From positions 1 to 29,388 of IMG/VR virus record IMGVR_UViG_3300022698_000381: 29,388 nt of DNA. One strand, written 5' to 3'. The stretch is from a virus. Under the pieces are notes generated by a model. That model had not been told where the DNA came from and ran no database searches. It saw nothing but the letters and a program-made list of their open reading frames with translations. Below are positions 216 through 29,365 of the stretch, one piece after another. Every line of letters starts with the position of its first letter. Position 1 is the first letter of the stretch. A program made the position numbers and the translations under genes.

Positions 216-812
216 TTATTTTGCTAATTGAAGATACTTATTTGATTCTTTTTCAGTCTTTAATTTGCACAAAGCATTCCTAACTATTTGACACGCTCTG
301 CCATTAGAAATTTTTTCTTCTTTTGCTATCTCTCCATATGTATGTTTATAATCATCTATACCAAAAAATTTACATACAAAACGCCTTTCTCTTTCAGAGA
401 GAACACAAAGAGCCTTTCTTACCAAATCCTTTCTTTCTTTCTTTATATAACTATCTTCAGCTGATTCTATCAAAAGAGCATTATTCTCACTAGAAATAAC
501 CCTGTCCTCAATATTAACCTCATTTGTGATTTTATTTCTATCAATAAGATCAAATCTATCAGGAAAAATTATTTCAGGAATAACATTAAATATCTTGGCA
601 ATATCCTTACACGGCTTTATATACCCTCCTCTTTTCTTTTTGTATGGAATTCTAAAGTTAATGAGTAAATACAGTGTTTGATCATTAATTCCATATTTAA
701 TGGAGAACTCTTTTCTTGATGAAGAACAACTTTCAATCAAATTCAAAAGAATATTGTTTTGAATCCTTGTAGTAACTCTAATATCTGAAAAATTAAAAGA
801 ATTTCTGTCCAT
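216..812 (-). CDS. Sigma-70 region 4-like transcription factor
   Basis: 198 aa. The C-terminal third (about residues 135-188) reads LSERERRFVCKFFGID, then a typical loop and the helix-turn-helix TYGEIAKEEKISNGRACQIV ending in ALCKLK. This closely follows sigma-70 region 4, the domain that contacts the -35 element and the RNA polymerase beta flap. The N-terminal half (about residues 20-85) looks like a Cro/XRE-style helix-turn-helix. No region 2 is visible, so it cannot act as a complete sigma alone; a region-2-like protein is encoded at 5299-5838. The start has AAGGAGT 5 nt upstream. It sits 3 nt downstream of the methyltransferase gene, so the two are probably co-transcribed. The sigma-4 assignment is strong; an activator of late genes is inference. 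Confidence 0.75.
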   Translation of the reverse strand: MDRNSFNFSDIRVTTRIQNNILLNLIESCSSSRKEFSIKYGINDQTLYLLINFRIPYKKKRGGYIKPCKDIAKIFNVIPEIIFPDRFDLIDRNKITNEVNIEDRVISSENNALLIESAEDSYIKKERKDLVRKALCVLSERERRFVCKFFGIDDYKHTYGEIAKEEKISNGRACQIVRNALCKLKTEKESNKYLQLAK

Positions 813-815
813 ATT

Positions 816-2384
816 TTACTCCTTATATTCCAATAAAAACCCTTTTTTCATTTTCTCTTTTCTTCTTGCCTTGTAATCATCAGGTATCCAGTTTTTTCCT
901 TCCGCAGCCCGTTCGTTAAACTCCTGCCATAGAAACTCGTCTTTAAATTCCAAATGGATTGTGCCATATACAGTATGTTTTTTATACACCCGAAATCTAA
1001 AAAAATGGCTTTCATGAACATAATTAAATACATTTCCTTTTTCACTGTTCTTGACAAATGTTTCTATAATTCCATTTTCATATTGATTTCTGAATTCAGT
1101 GTCATCTGTGGGATTGTTCTTGTCCTTCAACCGATCCCCTGACAGCCACATCATAACCCGATCCAAATCGTTCAACACATCTTCCAATTTCCAATCAATT
1201 TTATAGCTGCTAAAACAATAACCCCACAATTGTGGGATGATGACTTTTTTGTTTACTTTATAGCTGTCGTTTGTCCACCATCCCTCTTTTTCAATTTTAT
1301 TTTGTTTATCATACGACGTCAGCAGATCAAACGTACTCAAAATAGATTCATTCATAATACTTTCGAAAGAAAAAATCAAAGCGTCAAGAAACTGATAAAT
1401 GTTCTGCTCTGTAAATTCAATCAACGAACTGGAATTTATTTGCTGCATAAACTCCTTTTTTATCTTACTCGACATCAGTTTTGTAAAACGGGGATATGAC
1501 AAAAGCTTCTTCCATGCTCTTTTTGTAGATGCCTTTATATATTGATTAAAATCAGTAGAATAATCCTCCACTTCACTAAAAGCAACTCCTCCAAGCCCTC
1601 TCAGTTTATGTATTTCATTTAATACCTTTTTATACTGCTCTATTTCTACTTTATGCCTATCAACTTCTGCTTTTATACTGTCCCTGGAAATTACAAACTT
1701 GTTTGGTTCGGTATCAATTGTATAATTATTGACCGTACTATATTCCGAAAAACTAAAAAAGTTCTCTTTATTTTTCTTTATATCCAGATTGACAATTACA
1801 CATTCAGGCGATGCTTTTCTATATGCCTTTGAAAACGCTTTTCCTATATTTATAATTTCAGCATCTTTCAGTTTTTTAACTAAAAGTTTTCTCTCTTCCG
1901 AAAAAGGATTATCGATTGTTTCTTTGTTGAGAACACAAATTATCTGGCCGCCTTCTTTCATCAATTCAATTGCCCTAAGCAAATGTGCAGCCCCTTGGTC
2001 AAATGGAGGGTTCATTACAATACAATCAATTTTATATTGCCCATCATAATCAAAAAAATCATTACCAATCACCCATATTTCCTCATACTCTTGTGCATTA
2101 CGGTGAGCAAAAAGCCGGTAATTGTACAGGACCGATCGAAGGGAAGGGTCTATTTCAATTGCAAATAAACCAACTTCCATTTCTTTTTGTTTTACTATTG
2201 CATTAGGCTCTTCCTCTCTATGTTGATAAGTGATATAATCATTAAAATCAGAACAGGCAATGCCTAAAAGCAGATCCCCCTTACCTGCCGATGGATCAAG
2301 GATTGACTTTGTATTTTCCCAATCAACCATATATTTAATTTTGTCTGCTATTTCCTGCGGGGTCGGATACCAGTTTTCGTTCAT
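816..2384 (-). CDS. Adenine-type DNA methyltransferase with DUF4942-like C-terminus
   Basis: 522 aa. The SAM-binding motif I (DPSAGKG, residues 30-36) and catalytic motif IV (NPPF, 125-128) mark a class I N6-adenine DNA methyltransferase core in the first ~200 residues. The C-terminal ~200 residues (ending FRFRVYKKHTVYGTIHLEF and EGKNWIPDDY) resemble the DUF4942 domain often fused to phage methyltransferases. I see no restriction endonuclease domain, so this is probably a solitary enzyme that protects or marks phage DNA. SD AGGAG lies 7 nt before ATG. It is followed 3 nt later by the sigma region-4-like gene. Confidence 0.85.
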   Translation of the reverse strand: MNENWYPTPQEIADKIKYMVDWENTKSILDPSAGKGDLLLGIACSDFNDYITYQHREEEPNAIVKQKEMEVGLFAIEIDPSLRSVLYNYRLFAHRNAQEYEEIWVIGNDFFDYDGQYKIDCIVMNPPFDQGAAHLLRAIELMKEGGQIICVLNKETIDNPFSEERKLLVKKLKDAEIINIGKAFSKAYRKASPECVIVNLDIKKNKENFFSFSEYSTVNNYTIDTEPNKFVISRDSIKAEVDRHKVEIEQYKKVLNEIHKLRGLGGVAFSEVEDYSTDFNQYIKASTKRAWKKLLSYPRFTKLMSSKIKKEFMQQINSSSLIEFTEQNIYQFLDALIFSFESIMNESILSTFDLLTSYDKQNKIEKEGWWTNDSYKVNKKVIIPQLWGYCFSSYKIDWKLEDVLNDLDRVMMWLSGDRLKDKNNPTDDTEFRNQYENGIIETFVKNSEKGNVFNYVHESHFFRFRVYKKHTVYGTIHLEFKDEFLWQEFNERAAEGKNWIPDDYKARRKEKMKKGFLLEYKE

Positions 2385-6235: not shown

Positions 6236-6725
6236 AATAACTAAATGATTTATAATAATGAAGATCATTCAAAAGCCGTTTGAAATGAGACCAGGAAATA
6301 ATCACAATCGGCTCCTTCAATTCTTTGTTTTTATATATAATTGACCAATCTTTATATTTTCCTTTATTGTTTTCAGCTTGTCGTATAGCACCTCTCAAAT
6401 CCAATTTTTCCGTATTTTTACATTCAAAAGCAATATCAACTTCTTCTTTTGCATGTCCTCTCAAAACCACATCCACACCTGATTGGCCCATTTCTCTGGA
6501 ATGAATCAAACACTGATCATCAGACTGATCATACTCGATACCAAGCAAACTTGCTAATTGCTCACAAACCCATTTCTGCAAATTTCTCCCTTTCGACTTC
6601 CTACTCGCAACAGTAATTGAATTTCTCCTCAGCTTCCTTAAAATCTTTTTCCCTAAAGAAACATCATCAGGAAGCATCAGTTCTAAAAATTCAATTTCTT
6701 CTTTTGTAAAACCTATCCATTTCAT
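6228..6725 (-). CDS. PD-(D/E)XK family nuclease
   Basis: 165 aa. After a basic helical N-terminus come GRNLQKWVCEQLA (helix with the conserved Glu), SGVDVVLRG (motif Asp) and DIAFECKNTEKLDL (E-x-K), then a helix and strand (WSIIYKNKELKEPIVIISW). This order is the PD-(D/E)XK core of Holliday-junction-resolvase and RecB-like nucleases, with one active site of Asp, Glu and Lys. Next to a RecA/UvsX recombinase, a junction-resolving or repair nuclease is the natural guess, but a restriction-type role cannot be excluded. The start overlaps the upstream gene by 35 nt. Confidence 0.75.
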   Translation of the reverse strand: MKWIGFTKEEIEFLELMLPDDVSLGKKILRKLRRNSITVASRKSKGRNLQKWVCEQLASLLGIEYDQSDDQCLIHSREMGQSGVDVVLRGHAKEEVDIAFECKNTEKLDLRGAIRQAENNKGKYKDWSIIYKNKELKEPIVIISWSHFKRLLNDLHYYKSFSYYE

Positions 6726-6975
6726 CGTTTACCCTCACAAACAAACAGTACAATCCTGTAACTGCAAGATAATCTATAACATTCCTGTCAAAATTATCAC
6801 AAATTCCCTCCCTAATTTCTTCTAACGTTGCTTTACTGGCGGACAATTCTAAAAACCTTCTATATACAGCAAACAAATCGTCTGGGTTTATTCCTGTCTC
6901 TCTTATAACATTCTCAACTAACCTCTGTACTTCGGAGTCCTCTTTACCTTTATCTCGTCCTCGATAGCTTCCCAT
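6691..6975 (-). CDS. Hypothetical protein (94 aa)
   Basis: The product starts MGSYRGRDKGKEDSEV and is helical, with alternating acidic and hydrophobic residues; no motif is recognised. SD GAGGG lies 4 nt before ATG. It overlaps the recombinase gene by 58 nt and the nuclease gene by 35 nt. This unusually deep nesting implies strong co-translation and a possible structural partnership with either neighbour. Confidence 0.6.
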   Translation of the reverse strand: MGSYRGRDKGKEDSEVQRLVENVIRETGINPDDLFAVYRRFLELSASKATLEEIREGICDNFDRNVIDYLAVTGLYCLFVRVNDEMDRFYKRRN

Positions 6976-8135
6976 TTATCCCTCACTTTATCAGTCAATC
7001 CCTTCTGCAGATTATTTTGCTCAATATAAGCAATCAGTTCTTCTCTTGTAAAAGTTTGTCCAAACATTTTATTGTAAGCAGAGGAAGTCTCATCATTTTG
7101 GTCCTGAATAAACCCAATCATCGCTTCTATCTTCTCATGCTTTTTATTAAATTCTCGATCTCTTACAGAATCAGTATACACAGCAAGCAAATCACGCTCA
7201 TTCAAAAAATCTTTCAGCTCACCTATTGTAAACTTCCTTCCCTCAGAATCCCCCCAAGAAATGTTTTTTGTTTTGCTCGGTAATAATTTGTAAGAATCAC
7301 CTCTAAGATCATAAAGAAAATCAATATTTGCTCCAATATTATCAATGCCATAATCAAAATAAATTGGAAAAACACAATCCCTATAAGGCCGGGGGGTTTT
7401 ACTTTTTTCGGCCCTTGCCCGTATAACAACACCCACAGTCCTGCCCTTCTTTTTTTCCTTACTAACATTTGCAAGCCAAATACACGCATAGGCATAAAAA
7501 TCAAGGGCTTTGCCTCCTGATCTCCTTTGCTTTCGAAAAGGGCCTATTGCATTAATATCATCCCTCACCTGAGAAATAATAATAAGAAGACAATTTCTTT
7601 CCTCAGTCATAGAAACAAGCGACCTAAAAAACTGCTGAGAAAGAAATTTAGCAGAACCCATTTGATATGACCCTTTATCAAGACTTTCCCCTTTCTTGAA
7701 CTTTTTATACCTCTCATTCCCTATACCTTCAATCTCATCCGAAGAAAGGCCATCTAGTGAATCTACAACATAAATTCCAAATTGACTTTCCTTTAAGGAT
7801 TCCAGAAATTGTCTGTAATTACAATAAAGCTCCTCTACAGTTCTGCTCTTCACCCTATCTTTTTCCTTTTCAGGCACAACATCAAAACCATAAATGCTTT
7901 TTGTATCATGTGTAAGTCCAGATTCACAATCATCATAAACCCATTTAAACCTGTTTTTTAGGGCATAAAATGCAGCAGCAATGATCTCACATGCAACAGC
8001 TGATTTCCCTGCAGATTTATCCCCCACAATATTTACAATCCGACCTGAGGGCATTCCAAATCCAAGACCACCGCCTGTTACCAAATCTAACAAATCTGAT
8101 CCTGTATGAAACCAAAATACTTCTTCCTTTCTCAT
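6918..8135 (-). CDS. RecA/UvsX-like recombinase
   Basis: 405 aa. Walker A GDKSAGKS (38-45), a conserved YDDCESG region (about 67-73), Walker B IYVVDSLDGL (121-130) and the ISQVRDDI / GGKALDFYAYACIW region (loop L1 and following strand) make this a RecA-fold strand-exchange ATPase, closer to phage UvsX-type proteins than to bacterial RecA. It would coat ssDNA and catalyse homologous pairing for repair and recombination-dependent replication. The C-terminal ~130 residues are charged and diverge from RecA. SD GAGG precedes ATG by 5 nt. The gp32-like SSB, a UvsY-like candidate and a nuclease are all nearby. Confidence 0.85.
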   Translation of the reverse strand: MRKEEVFWFHTGSDLLDLVTGGGLGFGMPSGRIVNIVGDKSAGKSAVACEIIAAAFYALKNRFKWVYDDCESGLTHDTKSIYGFDVVPEKEKDRVKSRTVEELYCNYRQFLESLKESQFGIYVVDSLDGLSSDEIEGIGNERYKKFKKGESLDKGSYQMGSAKFLSQQFFRSLVSMTEERNCLLIIISQVRDDINAIGPFRKQRRSGGKALDFYAYACIWLANVSKEKKKGRTVGVVIRARAEKSKTPRPYRDCVFPIYFDYGIDNIGANIDFLYDLRGDSYKLLPSKTKNISWGDSEGRKFTIGELKDFLNERDLLAVYTDSVRDREFNKKHEKIEAMIGFIQDQNDETSSAYNKMFGQTFTREELIAYIEQNNLQKGLTDKVRDKWEAIEDEIKVKRTPKYRG

Positions 8136-8142
8136 ATATACC

Positions 8143-8643
8143 TCACTTAAAAATACAAATCAAAGCCAAAACAACGATCACAATGGACTCACCTATTGCT
8201 ATCCATTTGTACAGATTCAACTGCCTGCTTAATTCTTTCAGCTTCTGCTTCAATTCCTTCGATGCCTCTTGTAAATTCTCCCGTTCGTTCACCAACTGAT
8301 CGTAATCCATCTTCAACTCTTCGGATCCATTCTGTAAGTTCTTGATTGCCTGTAATAAGCTCTCTATTTGTTTCTGTGCTTCTTTCAATTGCAGTTCTTG
8401 TTTGTTCAGTCGATTGGATTGCTCGGCCAATTTCTCCCTGGATACTTTCAATTCCTTCTCTGACTGATTGATCATATCCAGCAATAACCTGCTCGATTCC
8501 CTCAAACTTTGACAGTAATTCAGTATATTCTCTGTTGCTTTCTTGATCTCTACCGCCGAAGAGGATGATTGTAACTGAGATGATAACATAAAGAAAAGCA
8601 AGAATAATAATGACAGCTTGTATAATCTTCCATGCCTTTTCAT
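8143..8643 (-). CDS. Coiled-coil membrane protein, +1 frame overlapping partner
   Basis: 166 aa. An N-terminal signal-like segment (basic KRHGRLYK, then LSLLFLLFFMLSSQ), a long coiled coil (about residues 33-140, with heptads such as LAEQSNRLNKQELQLKEAQ) and a C-terminal transmembrane helix (WIAIGESIVIVVLALICIF). It starts 4 nt after the ATG of the 8189-8647 gene, in the +1 frame, and overlaps that gene over its whole length. The topology recalls a one-piece spanin, but there is no lipobox cysteine. The overlap with a second plausible membrane/coiled-coil gene makes an Rz/Rz1-like pair worth testing. Which frame is dominant cannot be told from the sequence. Confidence 0.65.
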   Translation of the reverse strand: MKRHGRLYKLSLLFLLFFMLSSQLQSSSSAVEIKKATENILNYCQSLRESSRLLLDMINQSEKELKVSREKLAEQSNRLNKQELQLKEAQKQIESLLQAIKNLQNGSEELKMDYDQLVNERENLQEASKELKQKLKELSRQLNLYKWIAIGESIVIVVLALICIFK

Positions 8644-8647
8644 TCAT
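8189..8647 (-). CDS. N-terminally anchored helical protein, i-spanin-like
   Basis: 152 aa from ATG 8647, which has GAGGG 5 nt upstream. Residues about 8-31 (IIQAVIIILAFLYVIISVTIIL) form one N-terminal transmembrane helix. The remainder is a soluble, amphipathic helical rod (REYTELLSKFEGIEQV, then repeated EGIESIQGEIGRAIQ). An inner-membrane anchor plus a periplasmic rod is the lambda Rz (i-spanin) plan. Its start codon overlaps the stop of the preceding gene (8640) and lies 4 nt from the start of the +1 frame gene. A location among recombination genes is unusual for lysis proteins, so a membrane tether for replication remains possible. Confidence 0.65.
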   Translation of the reverse strand: MNEKAWKIIQAVIIILAFLYVIISVTIILFGGRDQESNREYTELLSKFEGIEQVIAGYDQSVREGIESIQGEIGRAIQSTEQTRTAIERSTETNRELITGNQELTEWIRRVEDGLRSVGERTGEFTRGIEGIEAEAERIKQAVESVQMDSNR

Positions 8648-8906
8648 TTTTTCCCTCAACAGGTGTTTTCGAAAGATCATACTTATCCAAATCCTGAAAA
8701 GAAATTTCATCAGGATTTTTTTCTCCTTTTCCTAAATAGGAAATATCTGGAACTGAAATCACCCCATAAATCCCACCAACACACTGAAACCCTTTTCTAC
8801 AAATATGAGAAAAAACATCAAGCTTCCACAAACCTCTATTTGTATAATCTCTGACAATAACGTTTTTTCCAGGATAAATCAAAAACCTTTTTTTATCCTT
8901 TTCCAT
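8640..8906 (-). CDS. Hypothetical protein (88 aa)
   Basis: ATG 8906 (MEKDKKRFLIYPG) is chosen, with AAAGGAG 8 nt upstream; a longer frame would start at a TTG lying on that SD. It looks like a small soluble beta-rich protein with two Cys (HICRKGFQC) and an acidic tail. Its stop overlaps the start of the membrane pair (ATGAATGA). No family recognised. Confidence 0.6.
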   Translation of the reverse strand: MEKDKKRFLIYPGKNVIVRDYTNRGLWKLDVFSHICRKGFQCVGGIYGVISVPDISYLGKGEKNPDEISFQDLDKYDLSKTPVEGKNE

Positions 8907-9249
8907 TCTGTTTTCTCCTTTCAACAAATTGTTTCATGTCAAAATACGATTTTCTACGACGACCGGACTTAATATAATCGACTTTATATTCTGATAAAAG
9001 CACTCTAGCCCAATCAACACCAATTCCTGTTTTTTCCGCTATCTGTTCTGCACTATAAAACCCTTCAGGAATCTTCATTGTAATCGTATTAATATATTCA
9101 AGAAGCTTTTCTTTATCAAAATAAACAGCAGATCCTCTTTTTACACTAAACCCTTCCTGGTTTCCAATAAAGTAAAGACCAGCACGTGTTATGCGCTGGC
9201 CTGTCTTCTCCTTAAATAAAGCTTGTACATCTTTAAGCTGAATATACAT
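8893..9249 (-). CDS. Helix-turn-helix (excisionase/MerR-like) DNA-binding protein
   Basis: 118 aa. Two related halves are visible. Residues about 3-48 (QLKDVQALFKEKTGQRITRA ... YFDKEKLLEYI) and 62-110 (GFYSAEQIAEKTGIGVDWAR, then YIKSGRRRKSYFDMKQFVER) each look like a winged HTH of the excisionase/MerR type, with a basic wing. It would bind DNA directly, possibly as a phage regulator or a recombination accessory factor. SD AAGGAGG overlaps the end of the SSB gene, whose stop (9250) abuts this start, so translation is coupled. The DNA target is unknown. Confidence 0.6.
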   Translation of the reverse strand: MYIQLKDVQALFKEKTGQRITRAGLYFIGNQEGFSVKRGSAVYFDKEKLLEYINTITMKIPEGFYSAEQIAEKTGIGVDWARVLLSEYKVDYIKSGRRRKSYFDMKQFVERRKQNGKG

Positions 9250-11643: not shown

Positions 11644-14192
11644 AATTTTCCTCCTTTCAAAATTCCACAATCAGTCATCTCCGACCAATTACCATTCACT
11701 TCTGATCTTTCCTTTTCAATTTTCAAAGGTACCATTATCCAATCCCAATATTCCCTAATTTTCTTTGTACCATATTCAAAAACAATGCTGTCTATCTCAT
11801 CTTCTTCTTCTGGATGCACGTCCATTACAAGAGCATCGTGTATTTGCCCAATTATTTTACTTCTTTTAATTTTTCTCTTTTTGAGCTCCTTCGAAACTCG
11901 AATTAAAGTCCATAAAAGACAATGAAAAGCAGAACCCTGTATAGGATAATTACAAAGTTCATTCTTAGTCATATATCCTTGATATTTAAAGCCCGTGTAA
12001 GAATTTACAAATCCTCTTTTCAAATATTTATTATAAAAATCCTTTTTCCAATTAGCATACACAGAAAATTTTTCCCATAAAGAATATTCCACCTGACGCA
12101 CATGTTCAATAAAATCAAAAAAATCACAAATGCCTTTTTCTTTTAAGGATGCTTTTGTATAATCAGGCATGTCTTCCCAGAGACTTGGAGCAATTTTTAC
12201 ATAGTAATCTCCATAAAACTCTGCAAAAACAAAATCATTTTTAGCCACAAACCTTTCTACAGAATCAATATCCTCTTTAAGAAATAAAAGTTCTGCCTGG
12301 TCCCTGTGCATATCAGCACCTTCACTAATAATATAATCAATCAATACAGGGTCTTTATTATAACAGGCTGATATACAAACTTCCAATTGCTTATAATCAT
12401 ATTCAATCAACCGATTACTTTCTCTTGGCACAATAACTTTTCTTATGATTTTTTTTACTTCCTTATCCCTCTTAGGGATGTTTTGGAAGTTAGGAGAAGA
12501 CGAAGAAGATCTAAAAGTATCTGTAGTATATAACTGATAAAAAGGATGTATAAAACCATCCACAACTTCCCTTCTAAATTGATCTATATAATCAGCAGCT
12601 TTATCCCATCTTTTCCACTCCAAAATATCTTTTACAAAAGGAAAATCAATTTTTGACAAAGCTTCTTTATCTAGCTTGGGCGCTCCTGTAGGTGTAAGAT
12701 TGTTTTTATCCTTTTTAACTTTAAGTATATCAAAAAGAAGATGCTGCAAATCAGCAGGACTTGTATACTTAAACCTTTTCTTTCTATCCCATTTCTTAAC
12801 TTGATCAGACATTCTTATCTTTTCATCTAATCCAACAAGCTTTTCTTCTATCTTTATCTTTGTCTTATTAATAAGATCAACATCAACTCTAATTCCATCC
12901 AATTGCGCCTTTGCCAAATACTTGCTTCCTTCAATAAGCAACCCCAGGCCCTTTTTCTGCCTTTCACTCAATGCACCACAAAAAAACTCATACAATTTAT
13001 AGCACAAAAGGGAATCCAAACCATTATAAAGCAATACATCATTTAAAGGGGCTTCATCAATGCGATTAAAAGAATTATCTGATTTTTTATTTTCTCCTGA
13101 TTTTTTTGATTTTAAATAAACATCAACAGATTCATCGTATCCAAGAATTCCAAAAAGAATATAAGACCAATATTTTAACCCCTTCCTTCTCTTATTATGA
13201 AAACAATGGGCAGCTAACATAGTATCAAAATTATTAACACCCATAGAATATCCAAAACAAACAGTTGTCCACATAGACTCAAAAGGGAAATTATGTGCAA
13301 TTTTCAAAGAATCATTTTTTTGTACTTCCCGCCATTTAGCCCTAAATTCTTCATCTTCAAAATTAGGAAATGCAAAAGAAAATAATCCATTTGAAAAAGA
13401 AATAGTTCTTATCTTATGCCCTTCCCTTTGTGGTTTAATGCCTGTAGTTTCATAATCTTCAGCAATAACAGAATTCTGCAATGCATGTTCTTCTATAACC
13501 TTTACAGCTTTTTCTTTATCTTTGATTACAAAAACATCAGAAATATAATTATGGCCGTAAAAAGAAGTTTGGCATTTTTCTATAATATTCCTTAGCCCTC
13601 TCTTAAATTCATTATGTAAAGACACATTACCTTCATTTCTTACTCCAACATAAGAAGGATGATTCAAAACACCAACCCACATATTTAAATTTTGATCAGG
13701 AATACAACATCCAACAAAATCTTTAAAAGAATGTCCAGATAAATGCCTCCTTATTCTCCATCCTAAAAGACTATTAAATGCAATAGCTCCTAAAAGGATG
13801 ATCCCTTTTGGTTCCAATTCCTTAATTGTTTTTAATAAATTCTGTCTGCAAGCCTCAATTTCATTATTTTTTGGTGTTCTGTTATGTGGTGGTCTGCATA
13901 ACACAGCGTTTGTCTTCCAAAAATCTGCATCTAAATCATATCCCAAACCATCCAACACCCCTCTAAAATAAATTCCAGCATCACCTACTAATGGAATCCC
14001 TTGAGAATCCTCAACCCTACCAGGAGCTTCTGCAACAAACAAAATACCCAAACCCCCTTTTCCATGTCTTTTCATTTTTGGGGTTTTGCAAGAAGAGAAA
14101 AGCCCGCAAGTAGGACACCCAACAGGCTTTATCTTTTTTTCAAGGACTGTGTCTCCCTCTCCTCCCAAAAAAAACGCCTCTTGCTTCAACAT
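11640..14192 (-). CDS. Uracil-DNA glycosylase-DNA polymerase A fusion
   Basis: 850 aa. Residues ~20-205 are a family 4-type uracil-DNA glycosylase: 4Fe-4S ligand pattern Cys26-x2-Cys29 plus Cys99 and Cys115, AEAPGRVED (54-62), PLVGDAG (67-73), CRPPHNRTP and NHPS (177-180). Residues ~220-400 are a 3'-5' exonuclease (DYETTG with Asp246/Glu248; HNFPFE 300-305; Y389...D393). The rest is a family A polymerase: motif A EYDYKQLE (Asp599), motif B R647 to FYG (~661) and motif C IHDALV (Asp786, with Ala where Pol I has Glu883). SPO1-like phages have a similar fused architecture. The start overlaps the clamp stop by 7 nt. It is the replicative polymerase, possibly scanning for uracil. Confidence 0.9.
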   Translation of the reverse strand: MLKQEAFFLGGEGDTVLEKKIKPVGCPTCGLFSSCKTPKMKRHGKGGLGILFVAEAPGRVEDSQGIPLVGDAGIYFRGVLDGLGYDLDADFWKTNAVLCRPPHNRTPKNNEIEACRQNLLKTIKELEPKGIILLGAIAFNSLLGWRIRRHLSGHSFKDFVGCCIPDQNLNMWVGVLNHPSYVGVRNEGNVSLHNEFKRGLRNIIEKCQTSFYGHNYISDVFVIKDKEKAVKVIEEHALQNSVIAEDYETTGIKPQREGHKIRTISFSNGLFSFAFPNFEDEEFRAKWREVQKNDSLKIAHNFPFESMWTTVCFGYSMGVNNFDTMLAAHCFHNKRRKGLKYWSYILFGILGYDESVDVYLKSKKSGENKKSDNSFNRIDEAPLNDVLLYNGLDSLLCYKLYEFFCGALSERQKKGLGLLIEGSKYLAKAQLDGIRVDVDLINKTKIKIEEKLVGLDEKIRMSDQVKKWDRKKRFKYTSPADLQHLLFDILKVKKDKNNLTPTGAPKLDKEALSKIDFPFVKDILEWKRWDKAADYIDQFRREVVDGFIHPFYQLYTTDTFRSSSSSPNFQNIPKRDKEVKKIIRKVIVPRESNRLIEYDYKQLEVCISACYNKDPVLIDYIISEGADMHRDQAELLFLKEDIDSVERFVAKNDFVFAEFYGDYYVKIAPSLWEDMPDYTKASLKEKGICDFFDFIEHVRQVEYSLWEKFSVYANWKKDFYNKYLKRGFVNSYTGFKYQGYMTKNELCNYPIQGSAFHCLLWTLIRVSKELKKRKIKRSKIIGQIHDALVMDVHPEEEDEIDSIVFEYGTKKIREYWDWIMVPLKIEKERSEVNGNWSEMTDCGILKGGKF

Positions 14193-26324: not shown

Positions 26325-26636
26325 ATGGTAAAAGATACTGATTTTTGGTATATTCTGGAAAGTTTAAAGGAACTGGCTGTTTGGATTTATAAATCTCCAA
26401 TTCCTGAAAAGGATAAAGAATCAAAAATTTTTTCTATTTTTGAGGATTTTCGTGTTGTTGGAAAGGAAAGATATTTTTCCTATAAAGAATGCACAAATAC
26501 CGATGAAAAAGGAGAAGTTTGTTTTGAAGTTATGAATATAGAAAAAAAGGGAGAAAATTGTTTTTTTGTTTGTCCAAGATGCGGACATACAGTTAAAGCT
26601 ATAAGAGTATATACATATACTCTGGCAGATGATTAA
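26325..26636 (+). CDS. Small Cys-rich protein with zinc-ribbon tail (103 aa)
   Basis: ATG 26325 is set by AAAGGAGG 4 nt upstream and by the promoter; an earlier ATG would lie upstream of the predicted transcript start. The N-terminal ~50 residues are helical (FWYILESLKELAVWIYKSPI). The C-terminal half has Cys56, Cys66, Cys79 and CPRCGH (Cys83, Cys86, His88), consistent with a single zinc ribbon. The stop (TAA 26634-26636) sits inside the next gene's SD area. A small regulator or adaptor is plausible, but no family is recognised. Confidence 0.65.
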   Translation: MVKDTDFWYILESLKELAVWIYKSPIPEKDKESKIFSIFEDFRVVGKERYFSYKECTNTDEKGEVCFEVMNIEKKGENCFFVCPRCGHTVKAIRVYTYTLADD

Positions 26637-26646
26637 GGAGGATGAT

Positions 26647-27717
26647 ATGATAGCTTACAAAGTTTTTGATAAGAATTTTTGTTGTAGGGGTTTTCAGTAT
26701 AAAGTAGGGAAAACATATGAAATAGATAAAAGTCCAATTCTATGTGAAGAGGGATTTCATGCATGTAAAAATTTAATTGATTGTTTTTCTTATTATCCAT
26801 TCAATTCAAAGAATAAAGTTGCAATTGTTGAATTGCTTGGAGAAATAAAAGGGGATGAACAAGACAAACAAGTAACAAATAAAATTCGGATAGTCAAAGA
26901 GATTTCTTGGCAAGAAGTTTTATCTATTGTAAATACAGGCAAAAATTGTACTGGAAACAGGAACTCTGGAAACTATAACTCTGGAGACAAGAACTCTGGA
27001 CACTGTAACTCTGGTGACAGGAATTCTGGAGACAAGAACTCTGGAGACAAGAACTCTGGAGACTGGAATTCTGGAGACTGGAATTCTGGAGACTGGAATT
27101 CTGGAAACTGGAATTCTGGAAACAGGAATTCTGGAAACTGGAACTCTGGAAACAGGAACTCTGGAGACAAGAACTCTGGAAACAGGAACTCTGGAGAAAA
27201 GAACTCTGGAAACAGGAACTCTGGACACTGGAACTCTGGACACTGTAACTCTGGAGACAAGAACTCTGGACACTGTAACTCTGGAGACTGGAATTCTGGA
27301 GACAGGAACTCTGGTGACAGGAATTCTGGAGACTGGAACTCTGGAGACAGGAATTCTGGAGACAGGAATTCTGGAGACAGGAACTCTGGAAACTGGAACT
27401 CTGGGAACTGTAACTCTGGTGACTGGAATACAAAAGAACCTGAAAAAGTTTATTTCATGAACACTTTGATTGATAAAAAAGAATTGGATGCTATTAAATG
27501 TTCTGGAGCATATTGTATTTTAAATAGATTTTATCCAGTTAAATTTAGAGTTCGTACTTCATCCGGTAAATTTGGAGATTTTAAATATCTTCCTTTTAAA
27601 AGCTCTTTTAAACATTTTTGGAGAAATCTTTCAATAGATGAAAGAAAGACAATTATAAATATGCCTTACTTTAACAAAAAAGTCTTCTTTGAAATTACAG
27701 GGGTTAAAATAAGTTAA
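26647..27717 (+). CDS. DUF7666-like protein with 31-unit pentapeptide array
   Basis: 356 aa from ATG 26647, with AAGGAGG 5 nt before; an upstream ATG at 26629 would overlap the SD. Residues ~1-95 (YKVFDKNFCCRGFQYKVGK, FHACKNLIDCFSYYP, VAIVELLGEI) match a phage domain I recall as DUF7666. From 26962 the gene encodes 31 NSGxx units, in which only residues 4 and 5 vary (D/N/H/E, then W/R/K/C/Y). This resembles the N-x-G type Pentapeptide_2 repeats, which form elongated beta-helices. A C-terminal ~95-residue domain follows (NTLIDKKELDAIKCSG). It ends adjacent to a convergent gene at 27718. Role unknown; DNA mimicry is one idea. Confidence 0.75.
   Translation: MIAYKVFDKNFCCRGFQYKVGKTYEIDKSPILCEEGFHACKNLIDCFSYYPFNSKNKVAIVELLGEIKGDEQDKQVTNKIRIVKEISWQEVLSIVNTGKNCTGNRNSGNYNSGDKNSGHCNSGDRNSGDKNSGDKNSGDWNSGDWNSGDWNSGNWNSGNRNSGNWNSGNRNSGDKNSGNRNSGEKNSGNRNSGHWNSGHCNSGDKNSGHCNSGDWNSGDRNSGDRNSGDWNSGDRNSGDRNSGDRNSGNWNSGNCNSGDWNTKEPEKVYFMNTLIDKKELDAIKCSGAYCILNRFYPVKFRVRTSSGKFGDFKYLPFKSSFKHFWRNLSIDERKTIINMPYFNKKVFFEITGVKIS
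26962..27426 (+). repeat. Tandem 15-bp repeat array (31 units)
   Basis: 31 consecutive units with AA(C/T)TCTGG(A/T/G) at fixed phase and two variable codons. Ten units carry GAATTC. Serine is always TCT, so the DNA itself is homogenised, not just the protein. Such arrays readily gain or lose units. Confidence 0.95.
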
Positions 27718-28656: not shown

Positions 28657-29055
28657 TTAAATCCACCAATATTCTGCGGACAATGCCTGATCATAAGTAA
28701 GAATCTCGTCTATCTCAGCAACTGGTTCTTTTGCTTCAGGCATAGTTTCTACAATCTGTTTGAACTGTTCTTCTGTTATATATCCTTTAGCCAAATAACC
28801 TCTGTTTTCTGCAATAATCAGCCTATAAAATCCAATAGTAGCTTTTCTTTTGTCTTTTGGATCGTGGTTCGATGGGTTGATACAGTAAAGACGCCTGCCT
28901 AAAGATTCCATGTCTTTTTTCTCTCTGTCTAAAGGCGTTCCTTCTTCCAAGGAATTATCATAAGCAAGAGTAAACATATACCCTAGCCTTTCTGGAGAAG
29001 GACACCCTGCTATTCGAGGAAGTTCTTTTATCAATCTTCTTATTTTACTTTCCAT
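28657..29055 (-). CDS. Hypothetical protein (132 aa)
   Basis: Soluble, with charged helices (ESKIRRLIKELPRIAGC) and a compact region (LAYDNSLEEGTPLDREKKDM, then RKATIGFYRLIIAENRGY). No membrane segment and no catalytic motif I recognise. It overlaps the holin-like gene by 11 nt and abuts the membrane protein downstream, so it belongs to the same putative lysis operon. Function unassigned. Confidence 0.6.
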   Translation of the reverse strand: MESKIRRLIKELPRIAGCPSPERLGYMFTLAYDNSLEEGTPLDREKKDMESLGRRLYCINPSNHDPKDKRKATIGFYRLIIAENRGYLAKGYITEEQFKQIVETMPEAKEPVAEIDEILTYDQALSAEYWWI

Positions 29056-29365
29056 TACTTGCTCCTTTAATAATTTTCTTGATTGTTAATTTTCCTGTCT
29101 GGTATATAAGCACAGACATGGCAGAAATCAACAACCCTTTAAAAACTATGTTTCCTATAATTGATACAATCTGCCCATTTTCAAACCCATGAACAGATTG
29201 AACTATAATTCCCATGGGGATCCCCATAAGCAAAACAATTATTTTCCAAGAATCTTTTGAGATTCTTTTAAGACTTTTAAATCCTTTAAGAAATTGAATA
29301 ATAACTATTACAGATAAAGTAGCTAATATCTCTAATAGATATTGGTTGATAAATTCCAATAACAT
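29045..29365 (-). CDS. Holin-like small membrane protein
   Basis: 106 aa, ATG 29365 with AAGGAGGAGAT upstream. Hydrophobic stretches lie at about residues 8-27 (QYLLEILATLSVIVIIQFLK), 41-62 (KIIVLLMGIPMGIIVQSV) and 69-90, with a basic C-terminus (KLTIKKIIKGASNGK). Size and topology suit a phage holin, which permeabilises the inner membrane. It lies at the head of the visible part of a likely lysis group that includes an XhlA-like protein. Its own promoter is beyond the window edge. Confidence 0.6.
   Translation of the reverse strand: MLLEFINQYLLEILATLSVIVIIQFLKGFKSLKRISKDSWKIIVLLMGIPMGIIVQSVHGFENGQIVSIIGNIVFKGLLISAMSVLIYQTGKLTIKKIIKGASNGK

Follow-up and report, generated by a model that had tools for sequence, protein, structure and literature searches.

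Two helical envelope proteins from one near-total gene overlap: a probable spanin-like lysis module of spirochaete-type phages

Can a phage read two structured proteins from almost the whole length of one stretch of DNA, and what would such proteins do? The question is raised by two genes, here called A and B, on a 29.4-kb virus fragment (IMG/VR record IMGVR_UViG_3300022698_000381), whose entire 29,388-nucleotide sequence is referred to as the window. An earlier note, made from the sequence alone, described two genes overlapping almost completely, with starts 4 nt apart at ATGAATG. Our analysis confirmed this arrangement: A and B lie on the minus strand and have 455 nt in common, and B extends 46 nt beyond A (Table 1). 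The surrounding operon is tightly packed, with the downstream recA/uvsX-like gene starting 7 nt past the stop codon of B and 53 nt past that of A. Because the TGA of the upstream gene overlaps the ATG of B (ATGA), three frames are used at this point. The window's own lysis region probably lies near the weakly holin-like gene at the right edge, ~20 kb away from the pair. Elsewhere, positions 26629–27717 encode a protein built of NSG-type five-residue repeats; the 15-nt repeats hold several frames open on both strands, so that the extra open reading frames (ORFs) there are artefacts.

Table 1 Features of the doubly read stretch, its neighbours and the TJE1 counterpart.
Feature	Position	Strand	Remarks
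Gene A	8189..8647	minus	152 aa; ATG start at 8647
Gene B	8143..8643	minus	166 aa; ATG start at 8643; +1 frame of A
ATGAATG, start codons of A and B 4 nt apart	8641..8647	minus	sequence
GAGGG, candidate ribosome-binding site for both starts	8653..8657	minus	sequence; spacing 5 and 9 nt; putative function
C-terminal membrane anchor of B, WIAIGESIVIVVLALICIFK	8146..8205	minus	mostly past the stop codon of A
Upstream gene	8640..8927	minus	95 aa; without family match
recA/uvsX-like gene, downstream	6918..8135	minus	PF00154 6e-18; phrog_97 1e-39
Weakly holin-like gene, window right edge	29045..29365	minus	phrog_1129 holin E 0.0017, weak
Gap in Tetrasphaera phage TJE1 (L191, NC_019930)	36863-38602		unannotated; holin-like ORF and A/B pair
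TJE1 pair	A 37088-37498, B 37083-37586		unannotated; TJE1 is the only cultivated carrier found

A begins with a transmembrane (TM) helix (about residues 7–32) followed by a helical rod that is presumably periplasmic. AlphaFold placed a TM helix and a helical rod at residues 36–151 (pLDDT 75), agreeing with the sequence and with the N-terminally anchored rod read earlier. B combines a signal-like start lacking a lipobox, a single long helix, a C-terminal TM segment and a Lys tail, and was predicted as one helix spanning residues 27–165 (pLDDT 88). The architecture read earlier for B, with a signal-like start, a coiled coil and a C-terminal anchor, stands. At 1.5 Å per residue, the rods of A and B would each reach ~17 nm beyond their anchors. 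The window pair has no cysteine in the N-terminal anchor of A and none near the start of B, where the absence of a lipobox had already been noted. Judged from sequence, neither of the two can be lipid-anchored; the anchors of both resemble helices of the inner membrane that run in opposite orientations.

To be open, the B frame must avoid stops that A codons could create. There are 25 sites where a synonymous change in A would introduce a stop in B, and the stop-making codon was used at 0/25, compared with 5/13 harmless sites of the same codon types (Fisher 0.0026). Given A and the codon usage of the phage, the probability of B being open was 1e-5; +1 runs in the other window genes reach at most 106 codons. 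B starts with a hydrophobic segment no stronger than expected from the TM codons of A (z −0.2), and this start was thus dropped as independent evidence, while its C-terminal anchor is for the most part encoded beyond the overlap and not dictated by A. The frames of A and B are almost certainly both coding, and we infer that both are translated.

Relatives were reached through several queries. Direct homology searches with A and B gave no matches, and the adjacent DNA polymerase as query recovered no viral relative. With the recA neighbour as query, 80 relatives were recovered; they share a conserved replication operon but have no such pair at the recA-adjacent place. A scan for the architecture itself, overlapping ORFs with membrane starts, located the pair elsewhere in relatives: L004, L006, L011, L018 and L027 carry the design, as do L084 and L153, which were found later, L153 being the only new lineage in the final two viral scans. 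The cassette gene preceding the holin, used as query, yielded phage TJE1 and genomes from the phylum of a Treponema metagenome-assembled genome (MAG). Near-total +1 overlap was thereby found in 13 further lineages, comprising the seven IMG/VR contigs, TJE1 and, as prophages, five spirochaete genomes (L207, in a 4.65-Mb contig; L208; L227; L231; L236).

In all 14 lineages, B lies in the +1 frame of A, the starts are at most 10 nt apart, and the hydrophobic end of B falls 46–268 nt past A. The overlap measures 365–542 nt in most members, and most B proteins have a basic tail. The start spacing of the window, as ATGAATG or GTGAATG, recurs in L004, L011, L027, L084, L227 and L231. An A profile from seven relatives matched only one place in the window, A itself (E 0.008), and the B profile of the relatives had no match there. 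With similarity this marginal, the window pair is linked to the others by its architecture, its frame and the arrangement of its starts, together with membership in one phage family in the case of most virus contigs. Homologues keeping a single open frame, named in the earlier note as the case against two genes, were sought among the 13 lineages and none was found: both frames are open, with no stop at the at-risk sites. As these lineages were reached via the two-frame architecture, one-frame relatives may have been missed, and the count is evidence for recurrence of the design but not for retention of both frames in every homologue.

Several other matches were set aside. Those to an Elizabethkingia tape measure protein and to MT835858 were coiled-coil chance, and Pfam and PHROG coiled-coil matches for B were uninformative. 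One relative (record G015) contains at L119 16890–17275 a further pair of ORFs that overlap on the same strand and have hydrophobic starts, in a different layout. In spirochaetes, partly overlapping pairs display the two-part design with a shorter overlap of 155–233 nt, always +1. Alignment of window-type with these Treponema-type pairs by hhalign gave probabilities of 18% and 4%; homology was not demonstrated, and the shorter-overlap pairs are therefore cited as the same design and cassette, not as relatives. In two low-GC genomes of the same phylum as the spirochaete carriers (L217 7710–8394; L221, minus-strand pair, reverse-strand coordinates 7225–7945), the second partner combines a signal peptide and a helix with a C-terminal region that reads like beta strands with an aromatic last residue and might be an outer-membrane barrel.

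Selection on both frames was assessed in the relatives. The probability of B being open given A was 3e-11 to 2e-6 in seven relatives, 8e-4 to 9e-4 in L207/L208 and 3e-3 to 2e-7 in L227/L231/L236; TJE1 alone gave 0.016–0.05. A comparison of changes across relatives showed near-even divergence per codon position in the pairs of L084, L027, L004 and L018 (e.g., 0.39/0.33/0.33), whereas control genes displayed third-position excess (holin, 0.33/0.17/0.50; RecA, 0.14/0.07/0.39). In the same four lineages, other-frame similarity exceeded random back-translation (z 5–8); because this null takes synonymous sites to be saturated, the comparison by codon position is the cleaner of the two. Comparing divergence inside and outside the overlap provides a control within the same genes. 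In the partly overlapping Treponema-type pairs, divergence was 0.27/0.28/0.28 inside the overlap and third-position-biased just outside it (A, 0.28/0.23/0.47; B, 0.28/0.22/0.50), and a second set of such pairs agreed with this pattern. Purifying selection acts on both frames of the relatives, which is the mark of an overprinted gene; for the window, the evidence is stop avoidance.

These data bear on the simplest alternative, that only one gene is real and T-rich and purine-rich DNA holds the other frame open by accident. A and B are both low-complexity helices, the window B start is no more hydrophobic than the TM codons of A predict, and the openness of TJE1 on its own is modest, all of which would fit an accident. 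However, stop avoidance recurs in every lineage, codon-position divergence is flat, the within-gene controls agree and the B anchor lies mostly outside the overlap, making this alternative very improbable. The claim that both products are real proteins therefore stands. An idea that A is the older frame, taken from the phage codon pattern, was dropped, as A1/B3 is the GC-rich position in nearly all members; for this reason B looks like the main frame in GC-rich TJE1.

What the two proteins do is suggested by where the pair lies. An endolysin-like gene and a holin-like gene are followed by the pair in L004, L011, L018, L027, L153, TJE1, L207 and L208, a holin-like gene precedes it in truncated L084, and the pair ends the lysis cassette in at least nine lineages. 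The endolysin-like gene encodes an Amidase_2 protein in L011 (E 7e-26) and a weakly YkuD-like protein in others. Rz-like spanins were among the best PHROG matches of A in L084 (0.003), L192 (0.0008) and L211 (0.004), weak values in a comparison where coiled coils match falsely. Two other genes were observed at these loci. In L011, the holin-like gene and the pair are separated by a class 3 lipase gene (PF01764, 4e-10; reverse-strand coordinates 6526–7116), whose product might attack membrane lipids during lysis; in L084, a transglycosylase SLT gene whose product carries a signal peptide (PF01464, 3e-18; 769–1287, minus strand) faces the pair in convergent orientation.

Lipoproteins show a pattern of their own. 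No plausible lipoprotein ORF was found in the window, records G027–G032 or the complete TJE1 genome with a simple-pattern detector, and IMG/VR records may be incomplete. Lipoprotein genes do occur in some of the window phage's relatives that lack the pair. In three near-total relatives A itself is a lipoprotein (L208, LASC; L227, GGGCSTTP; L231, CSGCATRP), indicating that the anchor of A can be a lipid or a helix. In pair-less L147 (record G008), an N-terminal TM protein is overlapped by a small lipoprotein beside the terminase gene (minus strand, reverse-strand coordinates 11877–12378), an ordinary two-component spanin candidate. Given the cassette-end position, the weak spanin profiles and the lipoprotein pattern, the A/B pair is most likely a spanin-like lysis component. 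We assign a probability of about 0.62 to the reading that it is a two-component, Rz/Rz1-like lysis module of spirochaete-type phages that probably disrupts the outer membrane.

Two-component spanin genes usually, though not always, lie in or at the end of a holin–endolysin cassette. The window and L006 carry the pair among replication genes, outside a lysis cassette. This placement, beside recA in the window, and the separate weak holin candidate at the window's right edge would suit an envelope role unrelated to lysis, such as superinfection exclusion or another membrane function. The same design nevertheless occupies the lysis cassettes noted above, and lysis genes are unclustered in T4-like phages too (PMC6139136), so that distance from the cassette is compatible with a lysis role. 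We regard a non-lysis role in the window as improbable; the copy beside recA would do the same job as the cassette copies.

The pair was compared with known systems. As in lambda Rz/Rz1, two envelope proteins are read from one stretch, which in at least nine of the lineages comes last in the lysis cassette, and A has the i-spanin layout of an N-terminal TM helix and an outward helical domain. The +1 register of Rz/Rz1, recognized earlier, holds, and the likeness is now backed by cassette-end position and the weak Rz-like-spanin profiles. Unlike in Rz/Rz1, the A and B starts coincide (offset 4 nt), whereas in ~70% of embedded spanin pairs the second gene begins at about 0.4–0.5 of the first (PMC6139136); B is long, has a C-terminal TM segment in place of a lipobox and overlaps its partner far more extensively, and most pair-carrying records have no visible lipoprotein gene. 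In P2 LysB/LysC-type overlapped spanins, as here, the second gene runs past the end of the first, a layout also seen in the partly overlapping spirochaete pairs; B differs in being C-terminally anchored and not a lipoprotein. B shares an exported start and a C-terminal TM segment with the unimolecular spanin T1 gp11, but it lacks the N-terminal lipobox of that class, is helical, not beta-rich, and is always accompanied by A.

With respect to spanin definitions, an outer-membrane lipoprotein with a lipobox, the o-spanin, was not found in the window. The out-of-frame arrangement of overlapping two-component spanins was present throughout, as +1 both in the 14 near-total lineages and in those partial overlaps that were examined. 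A hypothetical type I i-spanin is mentioned, with no example, by Kongari et al. 2018 (PMC6139136); B has that layout. The set would be complete with the lipoprotein A of L208, L227 and L231, while the window A is no lipoprotein. Two lysis envelope proteins encoded with an out-of-frame overlap are already known from Rz/Rz1 and P2 LysB/LysC. The combination of coincident starts, near-total overlap, a C-terminally anchored partner and no lipoprotein was not found in the literature searched.

The hosts bear on the function. One relative sits in a Treponema MAG, and a scan of 273 further genomes of that MAG's family found none with a relative. The cassette gene was present in 14/392 genomes sampled from the phylum, and five genomes carry the near-total pair. 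Spirochaetes are the likely hosts of the group, a claim separate from the window's own host. The recorded host of TJE1 is Tetrasphaera, and actinobacteria of this kind have a single membrane; unless the host record is misleading, this suggests a role that extends beyond the outer membrane.

In the spanin-like reading that we favor, one messenger with one ribosome-binding site would be entered at two starts 4 nt apart to give A and B. A would be a type II protein with its rod pointing outward, and B a type I protein that is exported and held by its C-terminal TM segment and basic tail; the two rods, of near-equal length, would probably associate with each other in the periplasm. Once the inner membrane has been opened by the holin and the wall cut by the endolysin, this complex of A and B would act on what is left of the envelope, most likely by disrupting the outer membrane in the manner of Rz/Rz1. 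Pairing, topology, lysis function and the outer-membrane step are inferred. Weighing against this reading, both window anchors appear to be of the inner-membrane kind, which offers no obvious hold on the outer membrane; the recorded TJE1 host has one membrane; replication genes surround the pair in the window and L006; and both the window similarity and the spanin profiles are weak.

Two further readings address the anchors. The pair may be a lipoprotein-free spanin, in which two inner-membrane proteins of opposite topology with coincident starts would form a periplasm-crossing heterocomplex that disrupts the spirochaete outer membrane. We hold this as a tentative possibility. Alternatively, the doubly coded pair might serve lysis other than as an outer-membrane spanin, with A and B both in the inner membrane, where they would regulate or focus the holin and endolysin or link the wall to the holin lesion. 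The inner-membrane character of both anchors, the basic tail of most B proteins, the presence of the pair with no lipoprotein gene in TJE1, recorded from a monoderm host, and the freedom of A to use a TM helix or a lipid are consistent with such a pair. Yet both the position and the design, two parts overlapped in +1, fit spanins; lipoprotein genes of a spanin-like kind occur in pair-less relatives, and in three members A is a lipoprotein. We consider this alternative rather unlikely.

Near-full-length sharing of DNA by two structured proteins of ~150 residues is rare, and here it recurs in 14 lineages, with within-gene controls in related pairs. The pair is unannotated in at least one cultivated phage, TJE1, indicating that annotation pipelines overlook such pairs, and it represents a candidate spanin layout that would escape surveys in which a lipobox is required. 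If true, a lipoprotein-free spanin would add a third topological class of spanin to the two-component and unimolecular classes. The finding also offers a lead on how spirochaete phages, whose lysis is little described in the literature found, break the envelope of their hosts.
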